Below are positions 5,824-20,224 of a DNA stretch of 20,224 nucleotides, in pieces. The stretch's first letter is position 1, and the number at the start of each line of letters is the position of its first letter. The notes beneath the pieces were generated by a model, which saw nothing but the letters and a program-made list of their open reading frames with translations, made no database searches and was not told the DNA's origin. The translations under genes were made by a program, and so were the position numbers. This DNA comes from a virus. The stretch lies in the IMG/VR virus record IMGVR_UViG_3300043434_000834, positions 1 to 20,224 of that record; one strand, given 5' to 3'.

Positions 5824-5845
5824 TTGTCTGTTTTGCAGTGAAAAT

Positions 5846-5870
5846 AAAAACCCGCTTCGGCGGGTTTTTT
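5846..5870 (+). terminator. Rho-independent terminator after the major capsid gene
   Basis: CCCGC-TTCG-GCGGG hairpin (5851-5864) with a UUCG tetraloop, flanked by an A run and six T residues. It lies about 25 bases after the capsid stop and would end or attenuate the head operon. Confidence 0.93.
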
Positions 5871-5913
5871 ATTGACTTCGATTTATATTAGTATATAATG
5901 TAGAATTAACAAA

Positions 5914-5921
5914 TATAAATA
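5914..5921 (+). promoter_or_regulatory. T4-type late promoter at the HNH gene start
   Basis: A perfect TATAAATA octamer followed by C, identical to the T4 late promoter. It ends only five bases before the ATG at 5927. With the usual T4 spacing the transcript would begin at or next to that ATG. No Shine-Dalgarno sequence is present between the two. Confidence 0.65.
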
Positions 5922-5926
5922 CTTGT

Positions 5927-6685
5927 ATGAACAAATATAAAAATTGGTACAACAATATAATCAAATCTGCCCAATCTCGTATTACTGAAGAATATACAGA
6001 AATACATCACATTGTACCTAAAAGTTTAGGTGGGACAAACGATGCAAGTAATCTAACTAAATTAACGGCAAGGGAACATTTTATCTGCCATTGGTTGTTA
6101 ACAAAAATATATCCAGTTGGCGAAGAACATTGGAAAATGATTAATGCATTTAGAATGATGCGGGCTGAAAACCCCTGTCAACAACGATATAAAACAAAGA
6201 TTACATCTAGAGTCTATGCAAACTTAAAAGATGAATATTCTAAATTACAAAGCAAAAAGATTTCTGGAGAAAATAATCCAATGTACGGTGATAAATTTTA
6301 TAGAAGTGAAGTAGGAAAAGAATCTCAAAGAATGTCTGTCATTGGAGATAAAAACGGTAGCAAACAAAAACAGTCAAGAATTAAAATATCCAATAGTAAA
6401 AAAGGTAAAACCAGGAATCCATTTACCGAAGAATGGAAACAAAATTTATCTAATAACCACAAAAGTAAACAGCCGGGATTTGACGGTTCACTAAGTGAAG
6501 AAACAAAACAAAAAATGCGAGAAAAAGCTATTGGTCGCACACAGTCAGAAGAAACAAAAAAGAAAAAAGCAGACGCTATTCGTGGGTCAAAACGCCAAAA
6601 GAAACAGTGTCCCCATTGTCAACAATTGGTTGCAGTAAACGGATACGCCCGTTGGCACGGCGACAATTGCAAAAAGAAAGCATAA
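5927..6685 (+). CDS. HNH homing endonuclease, free-standing
   Basis: Probable selfish DNA endonuclease of the HNH family, 252 residues. The nuclease core is at 26-55, EIHHIVPKSLGGTNDASNL onward: His27/His28 in the HH pair, Asn42, and His51/His55 in the following helix. The middle (about 112-215) holds NUMOD3-like DNA-binding elements: a SGENNPMYGDK motif followed by two Ser-Glu-Glu-Thr-Lys helices (189-193, 207-211). A C-terminal zinc finger uses Cys228, Cys231, His244 and Cys248 (CPHCQQ and ARWHGDNC). It lies just after the capsid gene's terminator, a typical place for phage homing genes. Its A-rich composition differs from the capsid gene, suggesting separate origin. All core residues appear present, so it may be active. 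No Shine-Dalgarno is seen. Confidence 0.92.
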   Translation: MNKYKNWYNNIIKSAQSRITEEYTEIHHIVPKSLGGTNDASNLTKLTAREHFICHWLLTKIYPVGEEHWKMINAFRMMRAENPCQQRYKTKITSRVYANLKDEYSKLQSKKISGENNPMYGDKFYRSEVGKESQRMSVIGDKNGSKQKQSRIKISNSKKGKTRNPFTEEWKQNLSNNHKSKQPGFDGSLSEETKQKMREKAIGRTQSEETKKKKADAIRGSKRQKKQCPHCQQLVAVNGYARWHGDNCKKKA

Positions 6686-6686
6686 T

Positions 6687-7259
6687 ATGAAAATCCAAGA
6701 AATGACCATGCGTGGTCCAGATTACAATGATCTAGCTAATAAACTGGCCAATGATAACGCAGAAAAATGGCAAACAGGTAAACACATTGCTGATATAGAA
6801 CAGTTTAAGGTCAAAGTAAGTGATTCGGAACAATTACCCGGCGCATTATTATATACACTATGGGATAAAGATACTGTTGTGGCGTTTGCGGCTTTGATTG
6901 GGGGCAACGAAGTCGACGGGGTCTGGGTAAATCCTGACTACCGAGGACAACGAATATTTTCTAAGGTATTATGGTTTTTTAAAACTCGATTGAATAAGAG
7001 CCCACTAATTTTAGGAGATATACATTCTAAGGACATGCAAGAGGTTATCAAAGGATTGAGCAGATTTGAGAAAAAGTGGATTAATATTAGAACACAAGAA
7101 ATACAACCCTTTAGTTTAGACACACTAGATAATTTTTATAGTAGTGCAAGACCCACAGCATGGCGCTTAATGTTGGAAAATGACGGGGAATTTGATTGGC
7201 CTATGTTTAGGACAGGAATGCAGTTTATGAAAGAGGATTATACGGAATTAACTAAATAA
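6687..7259 (+). CDS. GNAT-like acyltransferase-fold protein, degenerate motif A
   Basis: A 190-residue protein resembling GCN5-related N-acetyltransferases in its centre. Residues 54-72 (LLYTLWDKDTVVAFAALIG) look like the paired beta strands of the fold, and 78-98 contain a motif-A-like VNPDYRGQRIFSKVL. In active family members the loop after Arg-Gly normally has glycines (RGxGxG) that bind the acetyl-CoA pyrophosphate; here those are Arg89 and Phe91, so cofactor binding is doubtful. The C-terminal half (100-190) has no recognised motif. It starts one base after the HNH stop, so translation is probably coupled; a terminator follows 40 bases downstream. The two genes may have arrived as a unit. 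A catalytic role is uncertain; it could be a structural use of the fold. Confidence 0.55.
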   Translation: MKIQEMTMRGPDYNDLANKLANDNAEKWQTGKHIADIEQFKVKVSDSEQLPGALLYTLWDKDTVVAFAALIGGNEVDGVWVNPDYRGQRIFSKVLWFFKTRLNKSPLILGDIHSKDMQEVIKGLSRFEKKWINIRTQEIQPFSLDTLDNFYSSARPTAWRLMLENDGEFDWPMFRTGMQFMKEDYTELTK

Positions 7260-7300
7260 ATTTATAAAAGAATTCTCAACGGGATGGGAAGAAACAAATT

Positions 7301-8243: not shown

Positions 8244-11200
8244 ATGCCTCAGGAAATTATTAATCTTAGTACAAACAGTTTTGTAGCATCAGGCGATACA
8301 ATTAGATCAGCATTTATTAAGTGTAATAATAATTTTGCCGAAATCTACGCTGTGTTTCCCGATGATTTTGCAGGCAACACTGAATTCCAAGTTATTAATC
8401 TAAGCAACGGTATAGGCACAGTAGACGGTGACACTGTGCGTGAAGCTTTTATTAAAATCAACAATAACTTTACTATATTATGGACAGATTTTCAAAGCAA
8501 TGCTGGCATTACCCTGTCAGGAAATACGCTTGCAAACGCTCAGCTAACTGTTAATGTTGGTGTAGGAGCAGATACACAGACCAGCGACACAGTATTTGAT
8601 GCCTTTACCAAAGTCAATGGAAATTTTACTAATTTATATGCTATATTAGGACTGGGCACTACCAGTGAAACCAATACGGCCTATGGACAGGCCAGCACAA
8701 GAACAATTAATCTTTACTTACAAAGCACAGCAGGCAACGGCGCAATTACAGCAAATGCCAACTTAGTTGCTTCAAGCGGTCAACAGATCATTGACATCGG
8801 TGACGGACCCGACACTCAAACAGGTGACACTGTTTACAGTGCTTTTATTAAGATCAATGAAAATTTTACACAACTTTATACATTCTTTGGTAATGATGGA
8901 GTCAGTGTAAATGCCAATGTCATCCAAAGTAATGCAATTACAGCTAACGGTAATATTGTAGCAAATAATTTATTTGCTTACAATTATGTAATTACCAACG
9001 GCAATGTTGTTGCTAGTGCATTTTTATATCCAAACGGTCAACCATATGCCCCAATAAGTCAAACCGATTGGGGGAATGTAACAGGAACATTAATTCCTAA
9101 TGCAAATGCTACTCACAGTTTAGGAACTAATTCAAGTGTATTTGCCAATGCTTATATTGGTAGCCAATTATTTTTAAATGGCGCTAACATTGGTTACAAT
9201 GGTAACTTATTGATTAATGGTGTACCTGTTGGCGGGATCAGTAATGTTAGTTACGACAGTCAGTCTGGTAATTTAACCATTGAAAGCAGCGACGGCACAG
9301 ACTATACTGTAGACATTGGTGTTGGCCGCAGTGACAGTCCTACTTTTGTTAATTTGACCACAACTGGTTACGCCAATGTAAACACACTGCAGGTTGCAGG
9401 TAATACTGTAATAGACAGTAATGCTACAATAAGATCATCTAATTTGCCTAATTCAGGTGTAACAGCAGGCAGTTATGGTAATGCCAGTGCAGTACCTGTT
9501 ATAACAGTTGATGCCAAAGGCCGCATCACTGCTGCTACTACAACTAATGTAGCCGGTGTCAGTAATGTAACATATAATAATACTTCAGGCAATTTAACAG
9601 TTAGTACCAGTGCAGGCACAGACTTTACAGTTGACTTAGGCGTAGGTACAGCAGATAGCGTAAGTTTTGCAAATATTACCAGCGCAGGATTTGCTAATGT
9701 TAATTCTCTGCAAATAGCGGGCAACACAGTCATCGACAGTAATGCTGTTATTAGATCAACCAATTTACCTACCAGCGGTGTTACAGCAGGTATTTACGGA
9801 AACGCTAGTACCGTTCCTGTTATAACAGTAGATGACAAAGGTAGAATTACCAGTGCAACTACAACCAATGTTGCTGGTGTAAGTAATGTAACTTATAATT
9901 CTACTACTGGTAACTTAACTATTTCTACCAGTGCAGGCACAACTTATGAAGTTGATTTAGGAATTGGTACCAGTGATACTCCTGTATTTTCAGGAATCAG
10001 TGTGTCAGGTAATGCCACAGTTAATGCGCTTACAGTAAACGGAGCAGTTACAGTTGGCGGTAATATTACACCCAGTGCTAATGCTGTTTATAATTTAGGT
10101 TCAACAGCAAGTAGATTCAAAGACTTGTTCTTAAGTGGTAACAGTATCTATTTGGATACCAGTACAATTACCAGCAATGCCACAGCAGTTGTTATTACCA
10201 ATGCACAAGGCGGCCAGTTTGTCATCGACGGTACTAGTGTTGGTACTCCTAGTCAAATTAGTAATGGCACTAGCAATGTCAAAGTCTATGCCAACGCTAA
10301 TGTCGCTATAAGTGTAGCAGGAACCAGTAATGTAGCTGAATTTGGTTCCACAGGCGTAACTGTTTTAGGAACAGCATCACTGTCTGGGAATGTTTCTGCC
10401 CCTTATTTTATTGGTAATATAATTGGTAATATCACAGGGAATATTACAGCACCTGGTGCCAATACACAAGTTCTATTCAATGATAACAATTTAATATCTG
10501 GTAACAGTAATTTAACATTTGATAAACAAACCAGTAACTTAACAGTCGCAGGTAATATTGTAACTGGTACATTAAATGCAGCAATTATTGGCAATGCCAG
10601 TGCAGCGATAACGGGCGCAACTGGTATATTTACAACCAGTACAACTACTGGTGCCATTAATACTGGAACACTAAACGCTAACAACACAGCTACAGTAGCA
10701 AATTTAACTGTTAATGCCACAGTAACAGCTGCAACAGTCAATGCTGCTGTAATTGGTAACGCAGGAGCTGCCTTTACAGGTGCAAGTATAAGTGCTGCAA
10801 CCATTGGTAATGCTAGTGCAGTACATACAGGTTCTACCTTTACTGGCACAGGTCAGGCTACATTTAATTCATTGGTTACTGGCACTATCAATGCTAACGG
10901 AACTGCAACAGTAAATGCTTTAACCAGTAATGGCGCCGTTTCAGGAACAACTGGTACATTTACAACCAGCACAACCACTGGCAGTTTACAATCAGGCGCA
11001 GTTGATTCCAATGCCAATATCACTGCATCTGGTTTAACTATTAACAACAGTGCTACAGTTGGTACTACCTTGTCTGTAGCAGGCGCTTCAATCTTTACAA
11101 ACACAACAGATTCATCAGGTACTACAACAGGTGCGTTAGTAGTATCCGGTGGGGTTGGTATAGCTAAGAATCTTAATGTAGGTGGAGAATTTGTAGTTTC

Positions 11201-14200
11201 AGGAAATACTACATTAGCAAACTTAACAGTAACTGGCAATACCACAATTTATGGTGCTAATAATCTTGCTGTATCAGATAATTTAATTGAACTACATACC
11301 AACGCCAATTTAACCACACCAACCAGTGATGACGGCCGTGATATTGGTATTAGAATTCATTACTGGAAAACTTCAGCTAACAATGCGGCACTGATTTGGT
11401 CAAATGATGAACAGAATTTAGAATGGTATGGCGCCGGGGCAGGTGATGATCCCAATGTTATCAGTCATAGTACTGCTGTTTATGGAAATATTAAAACTGG
11501 TAATTTGTATCTTGTTGGACTGCAACCTGCAGGCGGTGTAGGTGGTGACGGAACTCGTAGTACCAGCGTTTCAACCGGAGCACTAATTTTAGGCAGCAAC
11601 AGTGGTGCAGGTATTGGCGGTAATATCTATGTAGGTGGTAATGTAGTTGCAGGTAATGTCACAGCACTAACAGATATTACAAGCACTACTGCTTCTTTTG
11701 CTACAAGAATGACTACCAGCAATGTAGTAACTGGTGTATTAAATGCCAACAGTACTGTAACTGCAGCAACTCTAACAGTCAACGGAACAACAACCACAGA
11801 TACACTGACTGCAAACAATGCTACAATTGGAGTTAAATTAACGGCAGCTAACCTTGCTACTGGCGCTATTAACGCCAATGGCACAGTCACAGTAGCCAGT
11901 TTAATTAGCAATGCAGCCATTACTGGCGCAGACATTACAGGCACTACTGGAACATTTACAACCAAAGTCACTACCAGCAATCTTGCAACTGGTGCTATTA
12001 ATGCAAATGGAGCCGCGACAGTCAGCAGCTTGACCAGCAACGGTGCTATTATTGGCACTACTGGAACATTTACAACAACAGCTATTGCTAGTTCGTTGGC
12101 TGTAGGTACTATCAACGCTAACAGTACTGTTACTGTGGCTAGTTTAGCATCTAATACCACAGTATCGGGCGCTACATTCACAGGTACTGATGCAACATTT
12201 ACCAACAGTTTAACAACTACTACTTTAAAGTCTGCAACACTTAATACCAATGGCACAGCCACTGTGAATGCTTTAACCAGTAATGGTGCTGTTACCGGTA
12301 CGGTATTCACAGGAACAGATGCTACATTTACTACTAAGGTAACAACCAGCAACTTAGCGACTGGTGCTATCAATGCAAATGGAGCAGTTACTGTCGCAAG
12401 TATTACATCCAACGGTTCGGTATCGGGAACTGTTTTCACAGGCACAGACGCTACTTTTACAACCAAAGTAACTACTAGCAATTTAGCTACTGGCGCAATC
12501 AATGCCAATGGAACTGCTACAGTCAATGCCTTAACCAGTAACGGTGCTGTTACAGGTACAACTGGTACCTTTACTACCAGCACAACAACCTCCGCACTTA
12601 ATACCGGCACACTAAATGCCAATGGAACTGCTACTGTCAATGCTTTAACCAGTAACGGTACTGTAACAGGTACAACTGGTACATTTACTACCAGTACTAC
12701 AACAAGTGCGCTGAATACAGGCACATTAAATGCCAATAGCACTGTAACTGTAGCCAGTTTAACTAGCAATACAACAATTACAGCTACTGGTAATATTACA
12801 AGTGGCAATTTAAGTACAGCAGGTTTGATAAGTGCTACTGGTAATGTCAGTGGCGGAAATTTAATTAGTAACGGTGCCGTTACCGCAACAGGTAATATAA
12901 CTGGTGGCAATATTTCTACTACTGGCTCAGGTGGCAATATTACTGGCGCCAATATTATTTCAGCAACAACATTTACAGCTACTGGCAATATCACTGGCGG
13001 TAATATAATCAGTAATGCTGCAATAAGCGGCACAGTGTTTACAGGTACAGATGCTACATTCACTACCAAAGTAACTGCAGCCAATTTGGCCACTGGCGCA
13101 ATAAACGCCAATGCAAACATTACAGCAGCCGGTCTGTCTGTAAATGCCAATGCTACCATCAGCGGTAATATAACAGCAAGTAACTATATAATTTCTGGTA
13201 CTGGAATCTTTTATACCAACGGTACTGCATTTTTACCTAGCGGAATTGTAACCAGTGTAACAGGTACTGCAAATCAAATTACAGCAAGTCCAACAACAGG
13301 TAATGTTGTATTAAGTTTGCCCACTACAGTAGCTATTCAGACATTGAATGCTGCAACAATTGGTAATGCTGGTGCTGTTATCACCGGTGACACAGGAACA
13401 TTTACCACAAAAGTTACAACCAGTAATTTAGCAACAGGCGCAATTAACAGCAATGGCACAGTAACTGTCAATACACTTACCAGCAACGGTGCGGTCACAG
13501 GCACTGAAGCAACATTTACTACAAAAGTAACTACCAGTAACTTAGCTACAGGCGCAATTAATGCCAACGGCGCAGTAACTATACAAAGTTTATCAGTAAA
13601 TGCTTCAGCAACAGTCAGCGGAGGAATTCAAAATACTCCAATTGGTAATGCAACACCCAGTACCGGTGCATTTACTACAGTTAACGCTGCTATAATTGGT
13701 AATACTGGCGCAGCAGTAATTGGTGATACTGGTGTATTTGATACCAAAGTAACAACTGGTAATTTAGCAACTGGTGCCATTAATGCCAATGGAACTGCCA
13801 CAGTTAATGCCTTAACCAGTAACGGTGCTGTAATAGGTACCACTGGTACATTCACAACCAGTACAACCACTTCAGCACTTAACACAGGTACTATTAATGC
13901 CAATGGCACAGCCACTGTAAATGCACTGGTATCCAATGGTACTGTAAGTGGCACAACAGGAACATTCACAAACAGTGTAATTACAGGTTCTATAAATTCT
14001 GGTGCAATTAATTCAAATGCCAATGTCACTGCCGGCGGTATAACAGTTAATAATTCAGTTACAATTGGTACAACATTAAGTGTTGATGGTGCAACAACAA
14101 TTACAAATACAACAGAGTCATCGGGTATCGGGTCTGGTGCAGTAGTTGTTTCTGGTGGTGTCGGCATAGCTAAAAACTTAAATGTTGGTGGAACACTTAA

Positions 14201-15431
14201 TGTAACTGGTAATGCTACTATTGGCAATTTGACTGTAACTGGTAATACTACAATATACGGCGCCAACAACCTTGCGATATCAGATAACCTAATTGAATTA
14301 CATACTAATGCCAATTTAACTACACCAACCAGTGATGATGGTCGTGATATTGGTATTAGATTTCATTACTGGAAAACTTCAGCCAATAATGCAGCTTTAA
14401 TATGGAGCAACGACGAACAAAACTTAGAGTGGTACGGCGCTGGCGCTGGTGACGACCCCAATGTCATTAGTCATAGTACCGCTGTCTATGGAAATATCAA
14501 AACAGGTAATTTACAACTGTTAGGTGATCAGCCAGCGGGTGGTACAGGTGGTGATGGTACTCGCAGTACTAGTATTTCAACTGGTGCTTTAATTTTAGGC
14601 AGTAATAGTGGCGCCGGAATTGGCGGAAATATCTATGTAGGTGGTAATGTAGTTGCAGGTAACGCTACTATAACTACAGCAGTAACAGCAGTATCAGGCA
14701 TATTTGCTACTAAAGTTACCACAAGCAATTTAGCAACAGGCGCAATTAACGCCAACGGTACTATTACAGTTGCAGCAGTTACATCCAATGGTGCAGTGAG
14801 TGGCACAACATTTACCGGTACAGATGCTACTTTTACCACCAAAGTAACTACTGCCAACTTGGCAACAGGTGCTATTAATGCCAACAGCACAGCCACTGTA
14901 AATGCATTGACCAGTAATGGTGCAGTATCCGGCACGACTTTTACAGGAACTGGTACAGGTACATTTAATTCTTTAGTAACTGGTACAATTAATGCTAATG
15001 GCACAGCCACAGTAAATGCATTGACCAGTAATGGTGCAGTATCTGGAACTACTGGAACATTTACTACTAGCACAACTACATCAGCATTGAACACAGGTAC
15101 ACTAAATGCTAATAGTACAGCAACTGTTAACGCTTTAGCCTCAAACGGTGCTGTAAGCGGTACTACAGGAACATTTACTACTAGTGTAACTACAGGTAGT
15201 ATTGCTAGTGGAGCCATTAATTCCAATGCAGCCATTACTGCCGGCAGTCTAGCAGTTAACAACGCAGCTACAGTTGGCACAACACTGACAGTAACTGGAA
15301 ATATTTTAACCACTGGTGGCAATGTCTACAGTAACAATAGAATTGGATTTACTTACAGTGCTAACACAACCAGTGCAGCATATCAAATCTATAACAGTGC
15401 AACCAATAGTATAGATACAGTGTTTGGATAA
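8244..15431 (+). CDS. Giant repeat-rich tail fibre-like structural protein (2395 aa)
   Basis: Probable long fibre or adhesin-like virion protein. The N-terminus has four copies of a G/S-DT-x3-AF-x-K-x-N-x-NF motif (residues 17-35, 62-80, 114-132, 194-212), a module seen in structural proteins of aquatic T4-like phages. Residues 333-583 hold tandem 107-residue repeats containing VPVITVDAKGRIT, a motif common in phage fibres. A PSANAVYNLGSTASRFKDLF element follows at about 610. From about 790 to 2350 the protein is built of 38- and 43-residue repeats (core GTATVNALTSNGAV), interrupted twice by an identical-length 186-residue module (953-1138, 1955-2140). Composition is almost only Thr, Ala, Asn, Gly, Ser, Val, Ile and Leu, with no Cys-rich or coiled-coil part. 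The short C-terminus has no recognised receptor domain or chaperone. The LamG protein follows after two bases. Confidence 0.82.
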   Translation: MPQEIINLSTNSFVASGDTIRSAFIKCNNNFAEIYAVFPDDFAGNTEFQVINLSNGIGTVDGDTVREAFIKINNNFTILWTDFQSNAGITLSGNTLANAQLTVNVGVGADTQTSDTVFDAFTKVNGNFTNLYAILGLGTTSETNTAYGQASTRTINLYLQSTAGNGAITANANLVASSGQQIIDIGDGPDTQTGDTVYSAFIKINENFTQLYTFFGNDGVSVNANVIQSNAITANGNIVANNLFAYNYVITNGNVVASAFLYPNGQPYAPISQTDWGNVTGTLIPNANATHSLGTNSSVFANAYIGSQLFLNGANIGYNGNLLINGVPVGGISNVSYDSQSGNLTIESSDGTDYTVDIGVGRSDSPTFVNLTTTGYANVNTLQVAGNTVIDSNATIRSSNLPNSGVTAGSYGNASAVPVITVDAKGRITAATTTNVAGVSNVTYNNTSGNLTVSTSAGTDFTVDLGVGTADSVSFANITSAGFANVNSLQIAGNTVIDSNAVIRSTNLPTSGVTAGIYGNASTVPVITVDDKGRITSATTTNVAGVSNVTYNSTTGNLTISTSAGTTYEVDLGIGTSDTPVFSGISVSGNATVNALTVNGAVTVGGNITPSANAVYNLGSTASRFKDLFLSGNSIYLDTSTITSNATAVVITNAQGGQFVIDGTSVGTPSQISNGTSNVKVYANANVAISVAGTSNVAEFGSTGVTVLGTASLSGNVSAPYFIGNIIGNITGNITAPGANTQVLFNDNNLISGNSNLTFDKQTSNLTVAGNIVTGTLNAAIIGNASAAITGATGIFTTSTTTGAINTGTLNANNTATVANLTVNATVTAATVNAAVIGNAGAAFTGASISAATIGNASAVHTGSTFTGTGQATFNSLVTGTINANGTATVNALTSNGAVSGTTGTFTTSTTTGSLQSGAVDSNANITASGLTINNSATVGTTLSVAGASIFTNTTDSSGTTTGALVVSGGVGIAKNLNVGGEFVVSGNTTLANLTVTGNTTIYGANNLAVSDNLIELHTNANLTTPTSDDGRDIGIRIHYWKTSANNAALIWSNDEQNLEWYGAGAGDDPNVISHSTAVYGNIKTGNLYLVGLQPAGGVGGDGTRSTSVSTGALILGSNSGAGIGGNIYVGGNVVAGNVTALTDITSTTASFATRMTTSNVVTGVLNANSTVTAATLTVNGTTTTDTLTANNATIGVKLTAANLATGAINANGTVTVASLISNAAITGADITGTTGTFTTKVTTSNLATGAINANGAATVSSLTSNGAIIGTTGTFTTTAIASSLAVGTINANSTVTVASLASNTTVSGATFTGTDATFTNSLTTTTLKSATLNTNGTATVNALTSNGAVTGTVFTGTDATFTTKVTTSNLATGAINANGAVTVASITSNGSVSGTVFTGTDATFTTKVTTSNLATGAINANGTATVNALTSNGAVTGTTGTFTTSTTTSALNTGTLNANGTATVNALTSNGTVTGTTGTFTTSTTTSALNTGTLNANSTVTVASLTSNTTITATGNITSGNLSTAGLISATGNVSGGNLISNGAVTATGNITGGNISTTGSGGNITGANIISATTFTATGNITGGNIISNAAISGTVFTGTDATFTTKVTAANLATGAINANANITAAGLSVNANATISGNITASNYIISGTGIFYTNGTAFLPSGIVTSVTGTANQITASPTTGNVVLSLPTTVAIQTLNAATIGNAGAVITGDTGTFTTKVTTSNLATGAINSNGTVTVNTLTSNGAVTGTEATFTTKVTTSNLATGAINANGAVTIQSLSVNASATVSGGIQNTPIGNATPSTGAFTTVNAAIIGNTGAAVIGDTGVFDTKVTTGNLATGAINANGTATVNALTSNGAVIGTTGTFTTSTTTSALNTGTINANGTATVNALVSNGTVSGTTGTFTNSVITGSINSGAINSNANVTAGGITVNNSVTIGTTLSVDGATTITNTTESSGIGSGAVVVSGGVGIAKNLNVGGTLNVTGNATIGNLTVTGNTTIYGANNLAISDNLIELHTNANLTTPTSDDGRDIGIRFHYWKTSANNAALIWSNDEQNLEWYGAGAGDDPNVISHSTAVYGNIKTGNLQLLGDQPAGGTGGDGTRSTSISTGALILGSNSGAGIGGNIYVGGNVVAGNATITTAVTAVSGIFATKVTTSNLATGAINANGTITVAAVTSNGAVSGTTFTGTDATFTTKVTTANLATGAINANSTATVNALTSNGAVSGTTFTGTGTGTFNSLVTGTINANGTATVNALTSNGAVSGTTGTFTTSTTTSALNTGTLNANSTATVNALASNGAVSGTTGTFTTSVTTGSIASGAINSNAAITAGSLAVNNAATVGTTLTVTGNILTTGGNVYSNNRIGFTYSANTTSAAYQIYNSATNSIDTVFG
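9240..9995 (+). repeat. 321-bp tandem repeat (107 residues)
   Basis: Equivalent SNVTYN/SNVSYD codons begin at 9240, 9561 and 9882, exactly 321 bases apart: two full copies and a partial third. Each full copy runs SNV..GNLT..DLGVG, then an ANVNSLQIAGNTVIDSN-type stretch, then GVTAG-YGNA and VPVITVD-KGRIT. Copies differ mainly by synonymous and conservative changes. Confidence 0.85.
11100..11657 (+). repeat. 558-bp module, copy A
   Basis: Encodes 186 residues in the first giant gene, from NTTDSSGTTTGALVVSGGVG through IYGANNL, DNLIELHTNANL, HYWKTSANNAALIWSNDEQN and LEWYGAGAGDDPN, to GNIYVGGNVVAGN. It contains Trp, His, Tyr and charged residues absent from the flanking repeats, so it is likely a compact domain. 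The related flank extends about 120 bases upstream. Confidence 0.88.
11690..13130 (+). repeat. Array of 38/43-residue repeats, first fibre gene
   Basis: Many copies of units sharing NANGTATVNALTSNGAV, preceded by either FTTSTTTSALNTGTLNAN (114-bp unit) or FTTKVTTSNLATGAINAN with an FTGTDAT linker (129-bp unit). Towards 12780-13020 the array changes into shorter TGNITGGN-type repeats. Similar but shorter arrays lie at about 13390-14035 and 14690-15245. Confidence 0.8.
14106..14663 (+). repeat. 558-bp module, copy B
   Basis: Second copy in the first giant gene, starting exactly 3006 bases after copy A and of equal length. It reads NTTESSGIGSGAVVVSGGVG and then the same conserved DNLIELHTNANL and HYWKTSANNAALIWS elements. 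The DNA differs from copy A at many third codon positions; copy C is closer to B across the Trp-rich part. Confidence 0.88.
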
Positions 15432-15433
15432 TT

Positions 15434-16351
15434 ATGGCAACAATAGCAACACGATTAACCAATACTGGAAATTTATTGGTCAACGGTACCATAGATGAAG
15501 TAACTTATAACGGCAATACCAGTTTTGCTAGCAGCACCATAGCAAATACTGTTTATGCTACAGGCGAATTTGACGAAGTGACTATAACCGGCAGCAGTGT
15601 GGCCCGTAGAATAGCTGCCAATGGCGCAGTTCAATTAAGCGGTATCTTTGACGAATTAACCGGAGCTCCAGTGATCGACGGTAATTTGAAGTTTTGGATA
15701 GATGCTGCGCAGTCTAATAGCTATTCAGGCTCCGGTGCAACTTGGTCGGATATCAGCACCAGTCAAAGCAATGTTACACTGTACAATAGCCCTACTTACA
15801 GCAGTGCAGTTACTGGGGGTAATATCAAATTTGTTCCAGGCAGTACACAGTACGGAGACACTGCTACAAATTTGGGCAATATGCCAAAATGGACCGCAGA
15901 AGCATGGGTAAAAGTCAATGCCAGTTTAACTGGGCAAGTAACCAGTGTAGTAACTAATCAATATAATTTAAGCAATGCCTTAAATTACAGTATTGGAACA
16001 AATAAAAGTCCAACGGACTACAATTTATGTATAGGGTTCTTTGATGGGGCATGGCATAACACTGCTGGCTTTGTGCCCACATTAGATACTTGGTATCAAG
16101 TTGTTGGCACTTATAATGGCAGTAGTTTAGTGCAGTATGTAAATGGCACAGCCAATGGCAGTGCTGTAAGCTACACAGGCACAGCCAGTTCTGGTGGTGT
16201 TACAAGAATAGCTCGTCGGTGGGACGATACCACTGCTTCAACTAACTTATTTCCTGGAGATATTGCTGTAGTTAGGATTTATAACAGAGCACTAACTGCG
16301 GACGAGGTCAATCAAAATTTCAATGCCCAAAGGCGTAGATTCAATATTTAA
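15434..16351 (+). CDS. LamG/concanavalin A-like lectin-domain virion protein
   Basis: Probable carbohydrate-binding tail or fibre accessory protein, 305 residues. Residues 85-300 match the LamG-like jelly-roll fold: LKFWIDAAQSNSYSGSGATW at 85-104, WTAEAWVKVN at 153-162, DTWYQVVGTYNGSSLVQYVN at 218-237 and a closing FPGDIAVVRIYNRALTADEV at 273-292. The N-terminus has three copies of G-x-[IF]-DE-[VL]-T at 18, 44 and 70, exactly 26 residues apart, probably a short beta-repeat anchor. It starts two bases after the fibre stop with only a weak GGA upstream, so translation is probably coupled to the giant gene. Its place between two repeat fibres suggests it sits on or near them, perhaps binding host surface glycans. 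Substrate is unknown. Confidence 0.82.
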   Translation: MATIATRLTNTGNLLVNGTIDEVTYNGNTSFASSTIANTVYATGEFDEVTITGSSVARRIAANGAVQLSGIFDELTGAPVIDGNLKFWIDAAQSNSYSGSGATWSDISTSQSNVTLYNSPTYSSAVTGGNIKFVPGSTQYGDTATNLGNMPKWTAEAWVKVNASLTGQVTSVVTNQYNLSNALNYSIGTNKSPTDYNLCIGFFDGAWHNTAGFVPTLDTWYQVVGTYNGSSLVQYVNGTANGSAVSYTGTASSGGVTRIARRWDDTTASTNLFPGDIAVVRIYNRALTADEVNQNFNAQRRRFNI

Positions 16352-16371: not shown

Positions 16372-19300
16372 ATGGCAAAATTATTAAGCGGCACAAGAAT
16401 CTATGGTAATGCAACAGTAGACACTAATCTGATTGTCAGCGGTACAACTACCAGCACCAGTACAACTACAGGTGCGTTAACGGTAGCAGGTGGTGCAGGC
16501 ATTGCCGGCAACTTGTATGTTACTAATCTCTTTGCTAATACCAGTACTTTTACCGCTAATATTACCAGTAATAATCTTGTAGTTGGAACAATTAATGCCA
16601 ATGGCACAGCTACAGTCAATGCATTAGTAAGTAATGGCGCTGTTTTAGGTACAACTGGTACATTTACAACCAGTACAACCACTTCAGCTTTAAACACTGG
16701 TACTATAAATGCCAACGGAACAGCTACAGTAAATGCATTAACCAGTAATGGAGCAGTTTCAGGAACAACTGGTACATTTACAACTAGCACAACCACTTCA
16801 GCTTTAAACACTGGTACTATAAATGCTAACGGAACAGCTACCGTCAATTCACTTGCATCAAACGGTGCTGTATCAGGAACAACTGGTACATTTACTACCA
16901 GTACAACAACTGCTGCGTTAAACACTGGTACTTTAAATGCCAACAATACTGCTACTGTTGCTAGTTTAATATCAAACACTACAGTCACAGCAGCTACAGT
17001 AAATGCTGCTACAATCGGTAACACAGGAGCTGCGTTAGTTGGTGCTAGTGTTTTCGCTGCTACTATTGGAAATAGTGGTGCGGCTATCACTGGTGACACA
17101 GGAACATTTACAACCAAAGTTACTACCGCCAACTTAGCAACAGGTGCAATCAACGCCAACGGTACTGCTACTGTTAACGCATTGACATCAAATGGCTCAG
17201 TATCAGGTACGACTTTTACGGGTACAGATGCTGCCTTTACAACTAAGGTAACAACAAGTAATTTGGCCACTGGGCCAATTAACGCTAACGGCACAGTAAC
17301 TGTTAATGCGTTAACTAGCAACGGTGCAGTAAGTGGCACTGTTTTCACAGGCACAGATGCTGCCTTTACCACTAAAGTAACAACCAGTAACTTAGCAACA
17401 GGTGCAATCAACGCCAATGGAACCGCTACAGTAAGTGCGCTAATCAGCAATGGTGCAGTTTCAGGTACGACTTTTACGGGCACAGATGCTACTTTCACAA
17501 CCAAAGTAACTACCAGCAATTTAGCCACTGGCGCAATCAACGCAAATGGCGTAGCCACAGTTAGTAGTCTTGCCAGTAACGGTACAGTGACAGGCACCAC
17601 CGGTACATTTACCACCAGCTTAGTTACTGCGGCAGTCAATACTGGGACATTAAATGCCAACAGCACAGCCACAGTAAATGCTTTGACCAGTAATGGTGCT
17701 GTCGCGGGCACAACATTTACAGGTACTGACGCTACTTTCACAACTAAAGTAACTACCAGTAATTTGGCTACAGGAGCCATTAACGCTAACGGAACTGCTA
17801 CAGTTGCAGCAGTTACATCCAATGGTGCAGTGTCAGGAACTGTATTCACAGGTACAGATGCTACTTTTACAACCAAAGTAACTACCAGTAACTTAGCAAC
17901 TGGAGCAATCAATGCCAATGGAACTGCAACTGTTAACGCACTTGCATCAAATGGCGCTGTTACTGGCACCACCGGTGTATTCACTACAAGTACAACCACT
18001 AGCGCTCTTAACACAGGTACATTGAATGCCAATAGCACAGCCACTGTTAATGCGTTGACATCGAACGGCACAGTTACAGGAACAACAGGTACATTTTCAA
18101 CCAGTGTTGTTACTGCTGCTGTTAATGCTGGAACACTTAACAGCAATGCCAACGCCACTGTAGCAGCACTTACAGTCAATGCCAATGCTACCATTGGTGG
18201 CAATGTAACTATTGGCAATCTTACTGTTGCAACTAGCATTACAACTAATTCTTTAAACACTGGCACACTTAATGCCAGCGGAACAGCTACGGTAAATGCT
18301 TTAACTAGTAACGGTGCAGTAAGTGGTACTACTGGTACTTTTGGTTCGGGAATTGTAACTTCAACACTAGATGCTAACGGAACTGCCACCGTTAATGCCT
18401 TAACCAGTAATGGTGCTGTCTCAGGCACTACTGGTACATTTACAACCAGTACAACTACTTCTGCTTTGGCTACAGGAACACTTAATGCCAATGGCACAGC
18501 TACAGTCAATGCCTTAACCAGCAATGGTGCAGTGTCAGGCACAACAGGAACATTTACAACTAGTACAACTACTTCAGCATTGAATACTGGTTCGCTTAAC
18601 GCTAATGGCACAGCCACAGTAAATGCATTAACCAGTAACGGTGCTGTCACAGGTACAACTGGTACATTTACAACCAGTACAACAACAACTACGTTGAATA
18701 CTGGTTCTTTAAATGCCAACGGAACTGCCACTGTTAATAGTTTAACTGCGAATGGTACAATAACTGCAGCCACAGTAAATGCTGCGACAATTGGCAATGC
18801 TGGTGTTGCAATTTTGGCTGCAACTGTTAGTGCAGCAACAATTGGTAATACTGGAGCTGCTGTCGCAGGTGCTACAGGCACATTTACAACCGGTGTGACC
18901 ACTGGCAGTATTGCCAGCGGAGCAGTTGATTCAAATGCCAATATCACAGCCAGTGGAATTACAGTTAATAACAGTGCAACTATTGGCACAACATTGGGTG
19001 TTGCTGGAATCACTAGCATCACTAACACAACTGATTCTTCAGGCACAGGCTCAGGCGCTGTGGTTGTTTCGGGTGGTGTAGGCATTGCTAAAAACTTAAA
19101 TGTGGGCGGTACACTAAATGTAACAGGCAATACAACTCTTGGCAACTTAACAGTTACAGGCAATACCACCATTTATGGCGCAAACAATTTAAGTGTTTTG
19201 GATAATTTAATTGAGCTGCATACCAATGCTAACTTAACATTACCAACCAGCGACGACGGTAGAGATATTGGTCTAAGAATACATTACTGGAAAACTTCAG

Positions 19301-20224
19301 CCAATAATGCAGCTTTAATATGGAGCAATGACGAGCAAAATTTAGAGTGGTATGGTGCAGGAGCAGGCGACGACCCCAATGTCATTAGCCACAGTACCGC
19401 AGTTTATGGAAATATCAAAACTGGTAATTTGCAACTGCTAGGAGACCAACCAGCTGGTGGTACAGGCGGAGATGGAACACGCAGCACCAGTGTAAATACA
19501 GGTGCGCTGATCCTGGGCAGTAATAGTGGCGCTGGCATAGGCGGTAACATTTATGTTGGTGGGAATGTGGTAGCAGGAAATGCCACAATTACAACAGCAG
19601 TAAGTGCGGCAACTGCAAGATTTACAACCAGTACAACTACTTCTGCACTGAACACAGGCACGCTAAATGCTAATGGAACTGCAACAGTAAATGCTTTAAC
19701 CAGCAATGGCGCAGTAACAGGTACAACCGGTGTATTTACAACCAGTACAACAACTTCAGCTCTTAATACGGGTACACTGAATGCCAATAGTACTGCTACA
19801 GTTAACTCTTTGGTGTCAAATGGGGCAGTAACGGGTACAACCGGCACATTTACCACAAGTACCACAACTTCAGCATTGAATACCGGCACACTAAATGCCA
19901 ACGGAACTGCAACAGTAAATGCTCTAACCAGTAATGGTGCGGTAACAGGTACAACAGGAACTTTTACAACCAGTGCAACTACTTCAGCGTTAAATACTGG
20001 AACTCTAAACGCCAATAGCACTGCTACTGTAAATTCTTTAGTTTCGAACAGTAGTGTGACAGGCACAACAGGTACATTTACAACCAGTACCACAACCACT
20101 GCACTGAACACTGGCACATTAAATGCCAATGGAACAGCAACAGTTAATGCGTTGACTTCAAACGGTGCTGTATTAGGTACAACAGGCACTTTTGGCTCAG
20201 GCGTAGTTACTACAACACTAAATG
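16372..20224 (+). CDS. Second giant repeat-rich fibre-like protein, 3' partial
   Basis: Paralogue of the protein at 8244, open to the right edge with no in-frame stop (at least 1284 residues). It starts MAKLLSGTRIYGNATVDTNL, then has a short TTTGALTVAGGAGIAGNLYV element (32-51) echoing the start of the 186-residue module. The rest is chiefly 38- and 43-residue repeats, with a full 186-residue module at residues 885-1070. It lacks the GDT..AF.K.N.NF repeats and the VPVITVDAKGRIT repeats of the first gene in the visible part. Composition is again Thr/Ala/Asn/Gly/Ser/Val. It is probably a fibre or adhesin-like virion protein that may pair with or alternate with the first. The true C-terminus, which would carry any receptor-binding or chaperone domain, is outside the window. 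Confidence 0.85.
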   Translation, partial: MAKLLSGTRIYGNATVDTNLIVSGTTTSTSTTTGALTVAGGAGIAGNLYVTNLFANTSTFTANITSNNLVVGTINANGTATVNALVSNGAVLGTTGTFTTSTTTSALNTGTINANGTATVNALTSNGAVSGTTGTFTTSTTTSALNTGTINANGTATVNSLASNGAVSGTTGTFTTSTTTAALNTGTLNANNTATVASLISNTTVTAATVNAATIGNTGAALVGASVFAATIGNSGAAITGDTGTFTTKVTTANLATGAINANGTATVNALTSNGSVSGTTFTGTDAAFTTKVTTSNLATGPINANGTVTVNALTSNGAVSGTVFTGTDAAFTTKVTTSNLATGAINANGTATVSALISNGAVSGTTFTGTDATFTTKVTTSNLATGAINANGVATVSSLASNGTVTGTTGTFTTSLVTAAVNTGTLNANSTATVNALTSNGAVAGTTFTGTDATFTTKVTTSNLATGAINANGTATVAAVTSNGAVSGTVFTGTDATFTTKVTTSNLATGAINANGTATVNALASNGAVTGTTGVFTTSTTTSALNTGTLNANSTATVNALTSNGTVTGTTGTFSTSVVTAAVNAGTLNSNANATVAALTVNANATIGGNVTIGNLTVATSITTNSLNTGTLNASGTATVNALTSNGAVSGTTGTFGSGIVTSTLDANGTATVNALTSNGAVSGTTGTFTTSTTTSALATGTLNANGTATVNALTSNGAVSGTTGTFTTSTTTSALNTGSLNANGTATVNALTSNGAVTGTTGTFTTSTTTTTLNTGSLNANGTATVNSLTANGTITAATVNAATIGNAGVAILAATVSAATIGNTGAAVAGATGTFTTGVTTGSIASGAVDSNANITASGITVNNSATIGTTLGVAGITSITNTTDSSGTGSGAVVVSGGVGIAKNLNVGGTLNVTGNTTLGNLTVTGNTTIYGANNLSVLDNLIELHTNANLTLPTSDDGRDIGLRIHYWKTSANNAALIWSNDEQNLEWYGAGAGDDPNVISHSTAVYGNIKTGNLQLLGDQPAGGTGGDGTRSTSVNTGALILGSNSGAGIGGNIYVGGNVVAGNATITTAVSAATARFTTSTTTSALNTGTLNANGTATVNALTSNGAVTGTTGVFTTSTTTSALNTGTLNANSTATVNSLVSNGAVTGTTGTFTTSTTTSALNTGTLNANGTATVNALTSNGAVTGTTGTFTTSATTSALNTGTLNANSTATVNSLVSNSSVTGTTGTFTTSTTTTALNTGTLNANGTATVNALTSNGAVLGTTGTFGSGVVTTTLN
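16600..18130 (+). repeat. Array of 114- and 129-bp repeats, second fibre gene
   Basis: The phenylalanine codon of the unit occurs at 16663, 16777 and 16891 (114-bp steps). It then occurs at 17107, 17236, 17365, 17494, 17608, 17737, 17866, 17980 and 18094, with every step exactly 129 or 114 bases. The two lengths reflect the linker: xGTTGTF (38 residues) or xGTxFTGTDATF (43 residues). Confidence 0.88.
19024..19581 (+). repeat. 558-bp module, copy C
   Basis: Third copy, in the second giant gene, of exactly the same length as copies A and B. It begins NTTDSSGTGSGAVVVSGGVG and ends GNIYVGGNVVAGN. Conserved differences include LSVLDNL for LAVSDNL and TLPTSDDG for TTPTSDDG. Confidence 0.88.
19621..20224 (+). 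repeat. Pure 114-bp tandem array running off the window
   Basis: Unit Phe codons at 19621, 19735, 19849, 19963 and 20077 are each exactly 114 bases apart, about five copies of the FTTSTTTSALNTGTLNAN type. The last visible part shifts to a TFGSGVVTTTLN variant like one at about 18340. Confidence 0.9.

Follow-up and report, generated by a model that had tools for sequence, protein, structure and literature searches.

Length-quantised repeat units in two putative tail-fibre proteins of a T4-like phage

The window analysed here, a virus record of 20,224 bases (IMG/VR record IMGVR_UViG_3300043434_000834), carries a T4-like head module followed by two very large genes, A and B, which are rich in Thr, Gly, Asn, and Ala and are separated by gene C, encoding a LamG protein (Table 1). 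A portal, a maturation protease, a scaffold-like protein, and a major capsid protein are encoded upstream of A and B and constitute a T4-like virion module, with the capsid protein being 65–70% identical to those of the jumbo phages Vibrio 2.275.O, Sinorhizobium Phosso, Serratia BF/Erwinia pEa_SNUABM, and PA5oct. Both A and B contain arrays of 38- and 43-residue units, which are the subject of this work and which probably form the shafts of trimeric tail fibres. Gene B, open at the end of the window, is complete in the sister contig L087, where it encodes 1579 residues and ends at what would be window coordinate 21111. As L087 and the window show no mismatches over 12,118 shared bases, an assembly artefact was ruled out as the origin of the array, although the two contigs possibly derive from the same sample.

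Table 1. Features of genes A, B, and C (window coordinates)
Feature	Coordinates	Strand	Remarks
Gene A, putative tail-fibre protein, 2395 residues	8244..15431	+	gp9/gp10-like N-terminal motifs, mosaic shaft with 38/43-residue units, two knob modules
Four copies of the GDTxRxAFxKxNxNF motif, start of gene A	8292..8867 (8292, 8427, 8583, 8823)	+	
Knob module copy 1, gene A	10986..11693	+	
Array of 38/43-residue units in gene A, K and S fronts intermingled	11955..12803	+	
Knob module copy 2, gene A	13992..14699	+	
Gene C, 305 residues, Laminin_G_3/concanavalin-like domain	15434..16351	+	PF13385, E 3.5e-17; PHROGs 24074 and 8510
Gene B, second putative fibre protein	16372..20224, open at window end	+	Full in sister contig L087
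Opening units of gene B, spaced by 38 residues, S fronts in the main	16549..17001	+	
Spacer of 17-residue modules (AATIGNTGAALVGASVF type)	~17002..17106	+	Self-similarity at lag 17
Core array, nine unit starts	17107..18120	+	Steps of 43, 43, 43, 38, 43, 43, 38, 38 residues
33-residue unit, short front TFGSGIVTSTLDAN	18340..18438	+	
S-type 38-residue units	18439..18759	+	
Knob module copy 3, gene B, ~246 residues	18910..19617 (to 19647 for the ~246-residue extent)	+	AlphaFold2 model and fold matches
S-type 38-residue units behind knob	19621..20224	+	

The nine unit starts of the core array are found at positions 17107, 17236, 17365, 17494, 17608, 17737, 17866, 17980, and 18094, and the eight steps between them measure 129, 129, 129, 114, 129, 129, 114, and 114 bases. 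This matches exactly the preliminary description of the region, in which every step over nine units in 17107–18094 was given as 114 or 129 bases, and periods of 114 and 129 were also obtained independently with Tandem Repeats Finder. Units of 38 and 43 residues fill genes A and B beyond the core array as well, and are found in the relatives L088, L089, L090, L091, L010, L092, and L094. When steps shorter than 60 residues were counted with a single anchor in the window phage and these seven relatives, all 71 fell into three classes, of 38 (n = 42), 43 (n = 26), and 33 (n = 3) residues; a looser anchor added single cases of 28, 37, and 44, together with 26-residue cases at a module edge. The lengths are thus strict, as had been proposed, rather than spread over many intermediate values. 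The two lengths originally named, 38 and 43, do dominate, but the code also includes 33 and 28, and the stretch 16600–20224, previously outlined as a repeat array, contains 17-residue modules, a 33-residue unit, and a knob module in addition to its 38/43-residue units. The order of the unit lengths is mixed, both within and between genomes. The head genes of the sister phage L088 are 87% identical to those of the window phage, but the units of its fibre genes differ in order and length, so that segments are gained and lost as whole units.

With the front Phe and the LNAN motif as dividing points, each unit falls into a linker, a front, and a tail. The linker has 4, 9, or 14 residues, with a single case of 15; the front has 9 or 14, apart from one of 8 and one of 3, the latter in a 26-residue module edge; and the tail measures 15 residues in 74 of 75 cases. 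Because the linker and front vary by 5 residues around a fixed tail, the lengths 28, 33, 38, and 43 are sums of 5-residue options, and a 38-residue unit is built in two ways, as 9+14+15 or 15+8+15. Changes of 5 residues are seen in three places, namely the linker (4/9/14), the front (9/14), and GAVSG, which can be lost, and each step gains or loses approximately one hydrophobic position. The hydrophobic columns of the 38-mer are fixed as V-F-(T/V)-L-L-V-L; the linker of the 43-mer contributes an additional Phe and K fronts an additional Val, and the 33-mer has a shortened front. If the Thr position of S fronts is included, all length classes have one core step per ~5.4 residues. Core hydrophobics recurring at strand-sized intervals (V, F, L, L, V, and L columns), with Gly/Asn/Ser turns, are what would be expected of a triple β-helix.

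Front type and linker are strongly associated. GTDA-type linkers are combined with 21 K fronts and no S fronts, and TTG-type linkers with 35 S fronts and four K fronts (Fisher's p ~1e-12, an optimistic value in that units sharing descent were treated as independent), in agreement with the earlier statement that the two are usually coupled, with exceptions. Across 111 fronts, those with Asp or Glu in the five residues before the front Phe carry Lys or Arg at Phe+3 in 34 of 35 cases, whereas 63 of the 76 fronts without an acidic residue there are also without Lys or Arg at Phe+3. The coupling tracks this Asp-Lys pair more closely than linker length alone. Accordingly, the K front at 17107, cited before as an exception, does break the linker-length rule but keeps the Asp-Lys rule, with the Asp being present (ITGDTGTFTTKV). 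As Asp and Lys are nearly the sole charges in the shaft, they probably form an ion pair across neighbouring strands. Several K fronts in L087 and L088 (for example, at window 11955) are without Asp at −3/−4 and have one at −8 or −9, approximately one 5-residue step further upstream.

The three copies of the knob module share 82–89% amino acid identity and are 31–47% identical at 4-fold degenerate sites. The same module is carried, with 68% identity, by the uncultured phage L012, and a tblastn search of isolated phages with it gave no match. An AlphaFold2 monomer model of the gene B copy (54 sequences) has a mean predicted local distance difference test (pLDDT) score of 74.7. Residues ~10–80 of the model continue the shaft, with pLDDT values of 86–94 in most blocks and no intrachain strands, and are followed by a small β-meander (~residues 100–150) and then by further shaft. 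A single chain taken from an intertwined triple β-helix would have this appearance, being extended, confidently predicted, and free of pairing with itself. Structure comparison of model residues 1–89 with VIA-align placed the P2 gpV spikes at the top (Z scores of 3.6–3.9, root mean square deviations of 3.3–3.7, 72–75 residues aligned, all below significance), with one chain of the dystrophin-glycoprotein complex also among the matches; Foldseek also lists the R2 pyocin spike for this shaft, and the BFVD matches of the model include tail-fibre and intramolecular-chaperone proteins of uncultured phages. These weak fold matches to trimeric β-helices are consistent evidence rather than proof.

The explanation that we favour, with a probability of about 0.62, is that A and B are the homotrimeric, intertwined β-helical tail-fibre shafts, with knobs, of a jumbo T4-like myovirus, in which 5 residues correspond to one strand. 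Three identical chains would be wound round one another into an intertwined triple β-helix, the 38/43-residue units acting as shaft segments and the ~246-residue modules as knobs along it. With a core position every ~5.4 residues, the 38-mer would comprise seven strand steps, the 43-mer eight, the 33-mer six, and the 28-mer five, and five extra residues would lengthen each of the three chains by one strand. In a C3 intertwined β-helix, each step would take the chain to the next face and up by one strand, such that any whole number of strands per chain would keep the stacking and leave the rod equivalent. This equivalence would explain both the quantum of 5 residues and the occurrence of units of different length in any order, with one-strand changes being tolerated and other lengths lost through selection. 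The front Lys would pair across strands with the Asp three or four residues before the front Phe, which would account for the coupling of front and linker. Of the first suggestion, a repeating β-fold with two interchangeable rungs, the regular β-fibre of interchangeable segments is the part best supported, by the strict lengths, the mixed order, and the resemblance of the neighbouring shaft to trimeric β-helices. The two rungs are not quite accurate, in that what is swapped is a step of 5 residues, which can fall in the linker, the front, or GAVSG and gives 28, 33, 38, and 43. If the rise per strand is ~0.47 nm, the 38-mer would be ~3.3 nm and the 43-mer ~3.8 nm long, and the fibres of A and B would be of the order of 100–200 nm.

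Several observations weigh against this explanation. The structural similarities found for the knob-module shaft are each weak (Foldseek E values of 2 or worse, Z scores below 4), and an AlphaFold2 monomer model of six array units (13 sequences) was uninformative, with a mean pLDDT of 41.5. The Asp-Lys association may be due in part to the shared descent of whole units. The evidence for a strand-sized step in other fibre families is mixed: self-similarity lags at multiples of 5.5 gave p 0.17 for all repetitive proteins and p 0.005 for knob-bearing fibres, the latter being the second of two tests, on a narrower set, with lags that include harmonics. In addition, comparison of the unit sequences with solved chains produced no match beyond chance hits. 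Among these, AcrA, a designer PPR protein (eight stretches of ~1 bit), and 6r5j, a structure appearing in papers on fungal effectors, were rejected as chance, and Pfam matches of the arrays to Aegerolysin and Phage_sheath_1C were considered compositional, with no stretch passing alone.

The strict lengths could also have a historical origin. If the units had spread recently, by slippage or recombination, their lengths might be fixed only through the youth of the copies, and exact repeats of at least 28 bases do exceed those in synonymous-codon shuffles (69 pairs versus a mean of 2), indicating some exchange or residual similarity. Nevertheless, the longest exact DNA repeat is shorter than 50 bases, and units at least 93% alike in protein average a DNA identity of only 79%. 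In 589 unit pairs with a similarity of 60% or more, protein identity averages 75%, but residues held in common have the same base at 39% of their 4-fold degenerate sites, compared with 35% expected from composition. The units are thus old and kept alike by selection on the protein, and these synonymous-site data largely refute a recent expansion, which we consider very improbable. Taken together, they indicate limited exchange among units that are neither a young expansion nor actively scrambled; scrambling of synonymous codons to avoid DNA repeats was ruled out, as exact repeats are commoner than in the synonymous shuffles.

The most serious competitor keeps the trimeric β-fibre and makes the 5-residue insert a surface loop or hairpin, the strict lengths reflecting only the block copying of a few ancestral units. 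The units are clearly of shared descent, FTGTDATF holds TGTD, which could form a turn, and the six-unit model is poor (pLDDT 41.5). We nevertheless regard this as unlikely, since the 5-residue differences are found at three sites, each with approximately one hydrophobic position gained or lost, and since the near saturation of synonymous sites implies time enough for other lengths to arise. Regular hydrophobic steps and Gly/Asn/Ser turns are likewise shown by β-solenoids, and A and B might be single-chain, monomeric β-helical adhesins instead of intertwined trimers. A solenoid needs whole coils of three strands, ~16–18 residues for three faces, whereas the steps here are 5 residues; monomeric solenoids usually also predict well as single chains, in contrast to the array (pLDDT ~41) and to the shaft without intrachain strands, and these arguments, although indirect, make a solenoid improbable. 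Finally, the Thr/Gly/Asn/Ala-rich sequence and the low pLDDT of the array could point to a low-complexity, intrinsically disordered linker with no fixed fold. Large hydrophobic residues at fixed positions in nearly all units, the fixed lengths, strong constraint at the protein level, and the confident model of the adjoining shaft render this hardly credible.

A tail-fibre role is in keeping with what surrounds the arrays. The motif found four times at the start of gene A is present in one copy in the relatives L088 and L012. One of the four copies, at residues 181–238, matches PF07880 (T4_gp9_10_N, E 3.7e-13), and four stretches match PHROG 677, baseplate wedge-tail fibre connector (E 2e-16). 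Gene A thus possesses an N-terminal baseplate/fibre attachment domain, and its product is probably attached to the baseplate through these gp9/gp10-like motifs. No such N-terminal motif was seen in gene B, whose product could form an additional fibre or a more distal segment. The C terminus of B (L087:12046–13002) has no Pfam match and no known chaperone domain, such as S74 or Peptidase_G2; its PHROG matches are solely to tail-fibre families (best E 5.3e-7). Searches of isolated phages by tblastn gave no match for this C terminus or for the whole of gene B, for which the low-complexity filter may hide repeats. In L089 (1976–2530) and L094 (9460–10002), the 38/43-residue array is followed by a C-terminal domain (AQYADLAERY...) that is not that of B; it is 40% identical to the PA5oct virion protein gp359, is shared more weakly with Campylobacter phages, has no Pfam name, and is possibly a fibre-end or chaperone domain. 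Peptidase_G2 was suspected here, without a Pfam match.

Serratia phage BF and PA5oct each have, a short distance behind the capsid gene, a gene for a tail-fibre protein with an S74 chaperone domain, and the PA5oct protein was detected in virions by mass spectrometry. Near the capsid gene CBB_257 of phage CBB, CBB_260 is a putative tail fibre likewise detected in virions by mass spectrometry (PMC5259590). Together with the gp9/gp10-like N terminus of A, these same-locus genes make tail fibre the most likely role of A and B. CBB also has hair-like whiskers to which no gene has been assigned (PMC5259590), and A or B might conceivably encode whiskers.

Gene C is a candidate sugar-binding fibre component, and its product weakly resembles a protein of Synechococcus phage S-SKS1. 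Directly after the capsid stop codon, an insertion (5824–7270) contains an HNH/NUMOD3 endonuclease-like gene (5927–6685) and a weak GNAT acetyltransferase match (6687–7259). L088 is without it, the region of its capsid stop codon joining directly to sequence corresponding to ~window 7270, and PA5oct and Serratia BF also have endonuclease-like genes close behind the capsid gene (Hef-like homing endonuclease; T5orf172). A 923-codon open frame lies opposite the array on the minus strand (16401–19172), with shorter ones elsewhere in A and B, and is most likely incidental to the repetitive codon usage of the units.

Phage triple β-helix fibres with knobs are already known. T4 gp34 is a triple β-helix with knobs and exclusively inter-chain hydrogen bonds, described by its authors as lacking a clear sequence motif (PMC5537660). 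A and B resemble gp34 and gp12 of T4 as long phage fibres in which a triple β-helix with small turn residues and an aliphatic core would be broken by wider knobs, but differ in that their shaft is made of near-identical 33/38/43-residue units and has no sequence match to solved chains. The membrane-piercing spikes of P2 gpV and R2 pyocin, the best though weak neighbours of the knob-module shaft, are intertwined trimeric β-helices, the form proposed for A and B; they are short puncturing hub spikes, whereas A and B have ~1600–2400 residues and knobs, with a gp9/gp10-like N terminus on A. Serratia BF gp258 and PA5oct gp324, from related jumbo phages, are likewise encoded downstream of the major capsid gene, and gp324 has a stretch that is knob-like by eye (TISDNI...AGLVWN), but both are without the 38/43-residue array and end in Peptidase_S74. 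The trimeric β-helical stalk of MyRF, in which five additional residues alter strand winding (PMC8326128), provides a precedent for a five-residue insertion of this kind, although MyRF is an animal transcription factor with a short stalk and represents a single case rather than a repeated code. Among uncultured phages, L012 (2395–13527) encodes a 3711-residue mosaic fibre with 44- and 49-residue repeats, again five apart, which has the knob module in common with A and B and the gp9/gp10-like N-terminal motif in common with A, and differs in unit sequence (GTLTGLTLSGTLTGT type). Neither Pfam, PHROGs, and isolated phages nor the papers searched yielded another shaft in which near-identical units have quantised lengths and bear an Asp-Lys mark. 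The object itself is a phage fibre; it is the readable length code that is unusual.

A one-strand ladder across fibre families is suggested by the 44/49-residue repeats of L012 and by the test on knob-bearing fibres (p 0.005), rather than established. We tentatively extend this, as a possible if doubtful generalisation, to a grammar in which triple β-helix shafts change by one strand (~5.5 residues) and rare Asp-Lys pairs act as register locks between chains; if this were true, shaft length and fold would be readable from sequence. The units may also serve as a marker with which to find such genes in uncultured jumbo phages, a knob-module search of isolates having given no match. Triple β-helix fibres are difficult to recognise and to model, since a clear sequence motif is usually missing from their repeats. 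The many interchangeable units described here, with their quantised lengths and almost unconstrained synonymous sites, would allow strand register to be read and fibre length to be estimated, and a simple rule for stable protein rods to be tested.

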